From NCBI GenBank assembly GCA_018697675.1, contig JABINC010000020.1:1-36506 (forward strand): DNA of 36,506 bases. The letters are read 5' to 3'. The notes below the pieces were generated by a model. That model did not search any database. It saw only the letters and a program-made list of their open reading frames with translations, and was not told where the DNA came from. The position numbers were made by a program, and so were the translations under genes. Source of the stretch: Candidatus Peregrinibacteria bacterium. Lineage in GTDB: Bacteria; Patescibacteriota; Gracilibacteria; UBA1369; JABINC01. Numbering within the stretch: position 1 is the first letter of the stretch; each line of letters starts with the position of its first letter. Below are positions 1 to 4,627 of the stretch, one piece after another.

Positions 1-15
1 AACATCGGACACATC

Positions 16-145
16 GTACAACAGGCACTATACGAGTCGCATCACTTGCAGTTCGCTCCACCAAATTACTTCCCTCATTTACGTGGGTATGTTAATTTTC
101 CCACGACATTCGGTCATAACTTCGTATAGTACCTGACCGTTGTGT
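16..145 (+). repeat. attC-like structured repeat, copy A
   Basis: Left arm GTACAAC AGG C ACTATACGA (16-35), right arm TCGTATAGT A CCT GACC GTTGTGT (122-145). The arms are inverted repeats with an unpaired 4-nt GACC on the right side. Inner hairpin CGTGGG(82-87)/CCCACG(100-105). Shares exact 17-mer acaacaggcactatacg and 16-mer cttcgtatagtacctg with copy B. Confidence 0.7.
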
Positions 146-177
146 GAAAGAAATGGCCCATTTTCAATTCAAAATAG

Positions 178-205
178 TTGACAGGAGTGTGGCTTTCGGT
201 ATAAT
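178..205 (+). promoter_or_regulatory. Sigma70-type promoter inside cassette 1
   Basis: TTGACA (178-183), 16 bp spacer, TATAAT (200-205); both hexamers perfect consensus, upstream of ORF 232-591. Confidence 0.8.
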
Positions 206-231
206 GCCACCTTATTATATAAGTTTTTTTT

Positions 232-591
232 ATGACACATCTCACAAATGTAGAGGCGCTCCTAGCAAACTTAAGTGAAATTGACCAAGATTTTGCAGAA
301 AATGCCGAACTGGATAGATTTTTAACAGTAAGAGATTCAATTGGAGATTGCGATAGGCTCCGAGCTGAAGATAATTGTATTCCTACTGATGTAGCAGACA
401 AGGTAATTCAAAGTACAAGACGATTGTTAGAATCACAAAGGCGCCCAGTAAGAGCATTACTGAAGTACTTGCGATTAAAATACATAGGCAAAAGAGCTAG
501 TGCAGCAGACGTAGGAAATAAACTAGCGCTTATAGGTGAGATAAGAAACTGTACGCCTTGCCCTAACGACGATTGTGCAAAAAGAATTTAA
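232..591 (+). CDS. Hypothetical protein, 119 aa (putative cassette ORF)
   Basis: ORF track; downstream of consensus promoter; no family recognised. Confidence 0.7.
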   Translation: MTHLTNVEALLANLSEIDQDFAENAELDRFLTVRDSIGDCDRLRAEDNCIPTDVADKVIQSTRRLLESQRRPVRALLKYLRLKYIGKRASAADVGNKLALIGEIRNCTPCPNDDCAKRI

Positions 592-692
592 AAAAAACTT
601 ATAATCTCCTGTTTACAGGGCCATTTCCTCTTCGCCAGCCCTCCTAACGTCGGTACGTTGCACTCTGGCTCGGTCTTCGCTGACGCTCGACT

Positions 693-834
693 CACACAAC
701 AGGCACTATACGGTTCATTCGCCCGCACCTCATTCACCCAAAATAGCTTCCTCTCTTTGGTGGCCGTAGCACTTCGTGCTATTATTTTACCACCACGTTC
801 GTTGCTATCTTCGTATAGTACCTGGCCGTTGTCG
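693..834 (+). repeat. attC-like structured repeat, copy B
   Basis: Left CACACAAC AGG C ACTATACG (693-712), right CGTATAGTACCT GGCC GTTGTCG (812-834). Inner stem TGGTGG(758-763)/CCACCA(790-795) encloses a second hairpin TAGCAC-TTC-GTGCTA (767-781). Confidence 0.7.
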
Positions 835-1404
835 GAAATTTTGAAACCTAATAAATTGTAAATATGAGAAAACAATATCACTTTAGACCGTCAAACAATG
901 GTTTCTACGCATGGGACGTAGATAAACTAATTGAAAAGAGCAAAGATTTCCCTCAAATTTCAATCAAATTAAATGAAATCAAAGAACTCGATAAAAACTT
1001 TTGGTATCAAATGTCAGATTCAATTCCTACTTGTCGTTCAATCGCAGAACATTTGCACTATGCAAACGAAGCGGATTTAAAGTACCCAATAATACTATCC
1101 AAAGATGGTGGAGTTATGGATGGCATGCATAGAGTGGTCAAAGCTCTTGCTTTAGGTTTAGATGAAATTAAAGCAGTGAAATTTGAGGAAGATCTTGAGC
1201 CAGACTATGAAGATGTTCATGAAGATGATTTGCCATATTAAAACGGTTTCAAATCATCCGACAACAGCGCGTAGGCGGATCGGGATTTTCTCGAAGGCCG
1301 GCTTCGCACGTCCTAAAAACCCCTCTCCCAAATTGTTTCCCTCGTTTAGATGATCATGTATTGTATCATCACTCTCGGTCACAACTTCAGATAGAAACTG
1401 GCCG
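829..1404 (+). mobile_element. Putative integron-like gene cassette 2 (ORF 864-1241 plus copy C site)
   Basis: GTTGTCGGAAATTTTGAAACC (828-848) matches the reverse complement of 1245-1265 (GGTTTCAAATCATCCGACAAC) at 18 of 21 positions. Confidence 0.6.
864..1241 (+). CDS. Hypothetical protein, 125 aa, ParB/sulfiredoxin-like motif (putative cassette ORF)
   Basis: Motif PIILSKDGGVMDGMHRVVKALALGLDEIKAVKF resembles the ParB-like nuclease fold core (D/E-G-x-H-R). Confidence 0.7.
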   Translation: MRKQYHFRPSNNGFYAWDVDKLIEKSKDFPQISIKLNEIKELDKNFWYQMSDSIPTCRSIAEHLHYANEADLKYPIILSKDGGVMDGMHRVVKALALGLDEIKAVKFEEDLEPDYEDVHEDDLPY

Positions 1405-1410
1405 TTACAC
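1258..1410 (+). repeat. attC-like structured repeat, copy C (degenerate left arm)
   Basis: Left box CCGACAAC (1258-1265), right end CGGTCACAACTTCAGATAGAAACTGGCCGTTACAC aligned to copies A/B. Inner stem GATGAT(1349-1354)/ATCATC(1365-1370). Inner left/right arms pair poorly. Confidence 0.6.
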
Positions 1411-1431
1411 AAAATTTTAAAATCCAACACT

Positions 1432-2862: not shown

Positions 2863-4627
2863 CCCCCTCCATCTTCTCGTCCATTTCTTCGTATTTAGAA
2901 TCGATGAGTTTTTCGAGTTTTTTCATTTCAACTCCATGATTGGCAATAGCCTCAACATCTTTTGCTAGGCAGGCTTTTTTCAACACTTCTCCAAGCTCTT
3001 TTTTCTGCTCTTCTAATTTTTCGATCTCCCTTTCCAGTTTTTCAATCTGTTTCTTGAGTAAACGCTGCTGTTTACGAGCTTCTTTATTATTTAAATTTGA
3101 ATCCCCAGATGTATCGGTAGTACCAGTACTTCCCATCAAACTCCCATCTTCTGACCAGCCACCTCCTGCCAAAAATTTATCATAACCATATTCAAGTACT
3201 TGAATTTTATTATTATCAAAAAGCACCAATTTTGTGGCGAGCCGAGATAACATATCCTCATTATGAGTAACGAAAATCACCGTACCTTCATATTTTTCAA
3301 TGGCCTCAGTCAGAGCTTCCACAGACTCCATATCCAAATGATTTGTGGGCTCATCAAGCATCAGGAGTTGAGATGGCCTAAGCAAGGTTTTCCCCAAACA
3401 AACCCTGCTTTTTTCTCCACCAGAAATCACATTGATAGGTTTTTTCGCGTCATCTCCACGGAAGAGCAGGGAGCCACATAAATTCCGAACCTCTTGTTCG
3501 GAAGCGTCAGAAGTTGCAACGAGCTCCTCCAAAATACTTCTTCTAGGGATAAGTTCTTGAATTGAATCTATTCCAAAATAACTAACTGCAAGGGTAGGGG
3601 GCATGCGCACTTTCCCACTATCTGGAGATAGCGTCTGATGAAGCAGTTTTAGAAGGGTCGATTTCCCCTTTCCATTTCGTCCAATAATAGCAATACGATC
3701 TCCAGGAAATGTAGTAAGTGAAAGATCCTGAATCAATGGCTGATCTGGTACATAGCCAAAGGTCAAATTGGTTGCATATATCACGGAATCACTCTTGCAA
3801 GGAATAGATCTGAAATGAAATTTGATAGTAGGAATATTATCCAACTTCAGTTTTATCTCTTGCTTGGCCAGGGATTTTATCCGAGATTGCACAAGCCCTG
3901 CACTTCTAGCACCAGATCTAAATTTACGGATAAATTCCTCCTCTTGAACCCTTTTCTTTTCTTGATTTTTACGAGTTTTATCATAAATTTCCTCATCTTT
4001 TTTTATATGCTGCATAAGTTTCATAGGACCTCCTGCCATTTTCCTCATATGTCCACGATGAATAGCGACCGTATGCGTAACCACCAAGTCCATAAAACGC
4101 TGATCATGTGTTATTAGGATAAATGCACCCTTCCAAGTTTTCAAAAAACGCTCAAGCCAACGCAAAGAAAGGATATCCAAATAGTTAGTAGGCTCATCCA
4201 AAAGAAGAAGATCCGACTCAGAAACCAGAGCTTCCGCCAAGCGTATTCGAACCTGAAAACCACTAGAAAATTCACTTGGAGCTCTGTCAAAATCTTTTTC
4301 TTCAAACCCAAGCCCCATCAAAATCGACTTAGCTTTCCAGCTTTCATTAGATGAATTTCCAGGTAAAGCTGAACAAATCTGATCCAAAATAGTTTTTTCT
4401 GAAAAGTTCAAATGTTGCTCAAGAGATCTGATTCGATAACCTTTAGGAATTTTAATCTCTCCTTCCAAGAAAAACTCTTCCCCAAGTAACATTTTCAGAA
4501 AAGTACTTTTCCCACTCCCATTTCTACCAATAAGCCCTATCCTCTCCTTGGGAGCTATATTCAAATCCACATCTTGAAAAAGAATTTGATCACCATAAGA
4601 TTTATTGAGCCCCGAAATTATTAGCAT
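2855..4627 (-). CDS. ABC-F family ATPase (two NBDs, Uup/YheS-like)
   Basis: Two Walker A (GRNGSGKST, GRNGKGKST), two LLLLDEPTN/LLMLDEPTN Walker B, second signature ISGGE, C-terminal coiled coil, no TM segments. Confidence 0.93.
   Translation of the reverse strand: MLIISGLNKSYGDQILFQDVDLNIAPKERIGLIGRNGSGKSTFLKMLLGEEFFLEGEIKIPKGYRIRSLEQHLNFSEKTILDQICSALPGNSSNESWKAKSILMGLGFEEKDFDRAPSEFSSGFQVRIRLAEALVSESDLLLLDEPTNYLDILSLRWLERFLKTWKGAFILITHDQRFMDLVVTHTVAIHRGHMRKMAGGPMKLMQHIKKDEEIYDKTRKNQEKKRVQEEEFIRKFRSGARSAGLVQSRIKSLAKQEIKLKLDNIPTIKFHFRSIPCKSDSVIYATNLTFGYVPDQPLIQDLSLTTFPGDRIAIIGRNGKGKSTLLKLLHQTLSPDSGKVRMPPTLAVSYFGIDSIQELIPRRSILEELVATSDASEQEVRNLCGSLLFRGDDAKKPINVISGGEKSRVCLGKTLLRPSQLLMLDEPTNHLDMESVEALTEAIEKYEGTVIFVTHNEDMLSRLATKLVLFDNNKIQVLEYGYDKFLAGGGWSEDGSLMGSTGTTDTSGDSNLNNKEARKQQRLLKKQIEKLEREIEKLEEQKKELGEVLKKACLAKDVEAIANHGVEMKKLEKLIDSKYEEMDEKMEGVI

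Follow-up and report, generated by a model that had tools for sequence, protein, structure and literature searches.

We have identified in a member of Candidatus Peregrinibacteria an array of gene cassettes, attC-like sites, and a matching tyrosine recombinase that we regard, with high confidence, as belonging to an integron variant that occurs across the CPR (Patescibacteria) and is served by a recombinase clade that is separate from IntI and mostly devoid of the IntI additional domain. The window, i.e. the whole stretch of 36,506 nucleotides that was analyzed, is contig C42 of a genome bin of 1.46 Mb in 76 contigs, and we infer that a chromosomal, integron-like array of gene cassettes has its distal end there. 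The original prediction had described an integron-like array that continues to the left of the window and lacks an integrase within it. No recombinase was indeed found inside the window, and the leftward continuation was confirmed. The integron-like reading itself gained support from the sites, from the recombinase, and from complementarity between cassette ends, a feature that the prediction did not contain.

All elements of the array lie on the forward strand. The window opens with the tail of a preceding cassette (positions 1-10), which is cut by the contig end and is identical in contig C45. It is followed by the attC-like site A (11-150), which scored 62.5 bits (E 5e-13) with a covariance model that included it in its training set. 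Site A consists of an R'' box, ACATCGTACAAC (11-22), an L'' arm (23-34), a variable terminal part, an L' arm (approximately 123-134), and an R' box, GTTGTGTGAAAG (139-150). Cassette 1 (140-828) begins with the TT of site A, ends with the G of site B, and harbors an ORF for 119 aa (232-591) without any Pfam or NCBIfam match. Site B (689-839) has the AAC of its R'' box at 698-700 and its R' box, GTTGTCGGAAAT, from position 828. Cassette 2 reaches from site B to site C (829-1404), and its ORF for 125 aa (864-1241) also matched no family. Behind site C (1254-1415), a terminal gene unit (1405-1944) with an ORF for 170 aa (1432-1944) is not followed by an attC and is inferred to form the distal end of the array. 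The three ORFs had been predicted at exactly these positions. The repeats and the exact block that they were said to share are likewise present, the limits of the former being refined here; the 17-mer ACAACAGGCACTATACG is found both at 18-34 and at 696-712, and the inverted-repeat stem leaves four nucleotides unpaired on one side only, as claimed.

The R' box of site A, GTTGTGTGA (from 139), is complementary to the R'' box of site B, TCACACAAC, and the R' box of site B, GTTGTCGGA (from 828), is exactly complementary to the R'' box of site C. This is the relation that exists between both ends of one integron cassette. Cassette 1 shows terminal complementarity of GTGTGA and TCACAC, and the ends of cassette 2 form a 24-nt inverted repeat (83%). 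When folds were computed for site B, the reconstituted circular form was better (z -4.05) than the form present in the array (z -2.66).

The view that the window holds three related sites stood only in part. Sites A and B share both arms, but site C shares the right arm alone; compared with the 55-nt right arm of the first copy (95-149), identity is 82% for the arm at 784-838 and 67% for that at 1360-1414. Site C is chimeric. Its right 87 nt matched the attC of contig C73 at 98%, whereas its left 72 nt matched a different attC type at 79%. Its arms are unpaired, and its fold was no better than that of shuffled sequence. Although the covariance model, for which site C was not used in training, still recognized it with 35 bits (E 1e-5), all eight remaining sites in the genome scored between 61 and 79 bits. 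GTGTAAC, the R'' partner of the GTTACAC of site C, does not occur downstream in the window, and there was no further covariance-model match on C42 past site C. We infer that site C is a dead, degenerate chimera that marks the worn-out distal end of the array.

Outside the window, the original prediction had pointed to further site copies, a tyrosine recombinase, and gain or loss of cassettes as informative, and the outcome was favorable to it on every count. A covariance model search found nine sites on four contigs of the genome. On C73, a tyrosine recombinase of 324 aa is encoded at 1339-2313. Upstream of it and divergent from it lie an attI-like junction, a first cassette with a gene of the PD-DExK/DUF6602 type, and then an attC. 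Contig C45 carries four sites; its cassettes encode a triosephosphate-isomerase-like protein, an acetyltransferase, and a NUDIX protein, and a further small gene is located behind its last site. C42 and C45 share exactly their first 141 bases and part directly after the GTT at 139-141, the predicted crossover triplet, differing from position 142 onward. One preceding cassette at the same site is followed by two different cassettes in the two contigs, and the variation looked for is present precisely where crossover was predicted. C42 and C45 may stem from two subpopulations or from a duplicated cassette, and we infer that either would imply recombination at the GTT. Only a single such event, in a single assembly, underlies this inference.

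On contig C17, a cassette and a single attC follow a second attI-like junction (approximately 735-760); no recombinase was found in the neighboring sequence that was read. An inverted copy of the attI-like motif lies approximately 90 bp away on the same contig. Extra copies of the motif flanking attI, TTTTTAGRCGCAATAT, were seen at 2469-2484 and 2612-2627 of C73, near the recombinase gene, and at C54:1891-1906, all on the plus strand. For neither C73 nor C17 did the bin contain a branch partner of the left end. At the right end of C45, a repeat of approximately 118 bases (3052-3169) is 99-100% common with the ends of C13, C64, and C37 and is probably a separate mobile or repeated element.

Could the repeats be non-mobile intergenic palindromes of the REP or MITE kind, or RNA elements, spread by some other process? 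Their look is common to palindromic intergenic repeats generally, and the poor fold of site C would be in keeping with this. However, an Rfam scan of the window placed no RNA family in the repeats and matched only a tRNA. The sites occur once per gene unit, in one orientation, and adjoin one recombinase, and neither the terminal complementarity nor the attI motif at the recombinase side is explained. We consider this explanation almost inconceivable and retain the integron variant.

The recombinase of C73 matched the integron integrase profile TIGR02249 with an E value of 7.5e-69 and 231 bits, i.e. below the cut-off of 265. The catalytic R, K, HxLR, GH, and Y were invariant in 18 aligned relatives. 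Sixteen of these 18 CPR enzymes have no insertion at the position of the IntI additional domain (near patch III); the exceptions are the enzyme of genome G142, with 7 extra residues, and the C73 enzyme, with an insert of 39 residues unlike the IntI sequence. Sequence and tree both ruled out that the latter is an IntI domain. In a tree of 73 proteins, the CPR enzymes formed one clade (100/99) and six classical IntI proteins another (100/99). A constraint joining the C73 enzyme with IntI as one clade was rejected (AU p 0.0017). A constraint making all CPR enzymes and IntI sisters was not rejected (p 0.068), and therefore a sister relation of the two is not excluded. For a structure model of a named relative from the CPR clade, the best fold match was IntI4 (2a3v), followed by XerA (5hxy). 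Thus, a tyrosine recombinase does adjoin the array on C73, but it is not a classical IntI and does not carry an IntI-type domain. A phage origin of the recombinase was also considered and discarded, with no relative above 38% identity among the IMG/VR matches listed. Elsewhere in the genome, the 3.4-kb contig C72 holds a transposase-like gene, judged by eye only, next to a tyrosine recombinase of 303 aa that scored only 191 bits, well short of the CPR clade. Genome G223, from the same order, encodes a CPR-clade recombinase (C55) in addition to a classical IntI (C21:2403-3335) that possesses the additional domain.

The recombinase served as the query in a search of the class, and the upstream sequence of the relatives found was then read; arrays were recovered in many genomes. 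The layout of 59 sites comprised ACATCnnnnAAC, L'', GGTTC, a CCCAAATT-like box, AAC(A/T)TC, L', approximately 4 bases, and GTTRnnnGAAAT. The departure of the R' boxes from GTTRRRY that had been pointed out in the window is real: GTTR is kept and the next bases are free. Pairing in the L helix amounted to 94.6%, and 262 cells were changed on both sides versus 94 in shuffles; the sites were chosen partly on their stem, and this covariation is inflated. Complementarity of at least 4 nt beyond GTT/AAC was present in 28 of 43 adjacent site pairs versus 26 of 346 non-adjacent pairs, and in 71 of 108 versus 60 of 856 when more loci, including two duplicated genomes, were counted. An attI-like motif resembling TTCGTATAGAAACGA-GTT, albeit variable, lies beside the recombinase in eleven genomes, with its R' complementary to the R'' of the first cassette. 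Two genomes of the order have arrays identical to those of the Candidatus Peregrinibacteria records JACPMA010000006 and JAHFJU010000010. Some genomes of the class read through TGA. From these observations we infer that the host is a CPR bacterium of the Peregrinibacteria type.

The covariance model detected sites in 64 of the 89 genomes of the order and, with a stricter cut, in 66 of 380 genomes of a sample of the phylum. Long arrays were also seen in genomes not used for model building (22 sites in G175, 14 in G114). Within the order, sites were present in 45 of 47 genomes with a recombinase of the clade versus 19 of 42 without one (Fisher p 6e-8). Near 27 named CPR recombinase loci spanning Peregrinibacteria, Gracilibacteria, Dojkabacteria, Magasanikbacteria, Wolfebacteria, and Paceibacterota, all 39 model matches were located upstream on the opposite strand, i.e. 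divergently. Cassette ORFs were on the array strand in 55 of 60 cases, and sampled cassette genes included those for restriction, AriA-like, GmrSD, HNH, methyltransferase, NUDIX, acetyltransferase, and phosphotransferase proteins. Outside two duplicate genome pairs, no whole cassettes common to different genomes were seen, similarity being almost confined to the site. At four loci (L060, L203, L200, and L016), defense-type cassette proteins were noted, comprising a type III restriction enzyme, an AriA-like ATPase, and a type II methyltransferase as well as GmrSD, HNH nucleases, and NucC-like/DUF6602 proteins. Cassette-like arrays with terminal complementarity, located beside recombinases without the IntI domain, were also observed at L103, L111, L116, and L117, whose hosts are a Spirochaetes MAG, Flavobacterium, Rhodonellum, and Fusibacter sp. 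3D3.

The presence of sites in 19 genomes without a detected recombinase of the clade may reflect incomplete bins, CALIN-like remnants, or another recombinase. It is compatible with the idea that the array is a CALIN left by a canonical IntI that was lost or acts in trans, the C73 enzyme being an ordinary Xer-like protein adjacent by chance. The window alone would at best be scored as such an attC cluster without integrase, and the IntI of G223 proves that a classical enzyme exists in the order. However, another contig of this genome carries the recombinase together with an attI-like site, and a profile search of the genome gave no second strong match to an integron integrase. At most two genomes of the order have a match as strong as the IntI of G223, compared with 64 that have sites, and it is the clade recombinase that is found upstream of and divergent from the array, beside the attI-like motif. 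The site model matched nothing near classical IntI loci, where only short flanks were available; this was the sole specificity test outside the CPR. A CALIN is accordingly judged very unlikely, and an array served by the clade recombinase is preferred.

The CPR recombinases are of the same fold family as XerA, XerC, and XerD, have a similar, XerA-like length, and lack the additional domain, which leaves the possibility that they act on double-stranded dif-like sites in the manner of Xer, e.g. pdif, with the hairpins being incidental, for instance terminators. As in pdif/Xer modules, genes are flanked by recombinase sites. A dif-like site measures 28 bp and is composed of two 11-bp arms and a 6-bp center. 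The CPR repeats, in contrast, are hairpins of 90-200 nt with a covarying stem. Their AAC/GTT flanks vary between sites, and the complementarity of these flanks is mainly restricted to a single cassette, which a double-stranded site would not need; the better fold of the reconstituted circular site also speaks against this explanation. The CPR enzymes further differ from the Xer proteins in being array-adjacent, upstream-divergent, and located by an attI-like motif, and in the ranking of IntI4 ahead of XerA as fold match. We deem double-stranded dif-like sites very unlikely and adhere to folded, attC-like ones.

The system resembles IntI integrons, including those of archaea (PMC9668308), in its divergent recombinase, adjoining attI, and tandem single-gene cassettes. 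It also shares folded, imperfectly palindromic attC sites, in which paired R'', L'', L', and R' boxes occur with an unpaired spacer and a variable terminal part, as well as the GTT triplet and complementary cassette termini. It differs in its separate recombinase clade (mostly without the additional domain), in an R' box of GTTRnnn plus GAAAT that does not meet the GTTRRRY/RYYYAAC core, in complementarity that often runs past the R box, and in a conserved internal CCCAAATT-like box. In canonical attC sites, an extrahelical G in L'' sets the strand choice, whereas the unpaired bases of the CPR sites are on the L'-R' arm. Surveys define the integron by the IntI domain together with attC (PMC9668308, PMC9024848), with the additional domain as the defining feature (PMC9668308, PMC9024848, PMC9229058). 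The system fails this domain test and is therefore not a classical integron by that definition; it nevertheless behaves as an integron on nearly every anatomical test made. No report of a CPR integron was found in the open-access literature; most subscription papers and preprints were outside the search, and novelty is not proven.

We propose that the C73 recombinase would insert circular single-gene cassettes at the attI-like junction. For insertion, the attC of the cassette, folded into a single-stranded hairpin, would recombine with the double-stranded attI at the GTT, as adopted from the integron model (PMC8946536, PMC2727003). Excision and reshuffling would proceed by attC × attC exchange, and an array of small genes on the same strand would result. 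The anatomy of the sites, the terminal complementarity, the attI-like motif, the intact catalytic residues, the co-occurrence, and the split of C42 and C45 at GTT were observed. Recombination of these sites by the C73 enzyme, a single-stranded substrate, and circulation of cassettes are inferred, no recombination having been observed. C73 and C42 are linked by a shared site type (the right half of site C) and not by continuous sequence because the bin is split into 76 contigs. Because the additional domain is held to be necessary for IntI activity and is absent here, recombination of folded sites by this clade rests on inference.

According to one proposal (PMC4792948), it was through the innovation of the additional domain that an Xer-like ancestor became able to use folded single strands; a system without the domain makes this proposal directly testable. 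We lean toward the interpretation that capture of cassettes through folded sites without the additional domain either originated separately in an Xer-like lineage of the CPR or preserves a stage that preceded the domain. If this is true, the integron has more than one molecular solution. Since integron searches use the IntI domain (PMC9668308, PMC9024848), a lineage without it would escape detection or be recorded merely as orphan attC clusters. CPR bacteria, with their small genomes, would gain a platform for gene capture from such a system.
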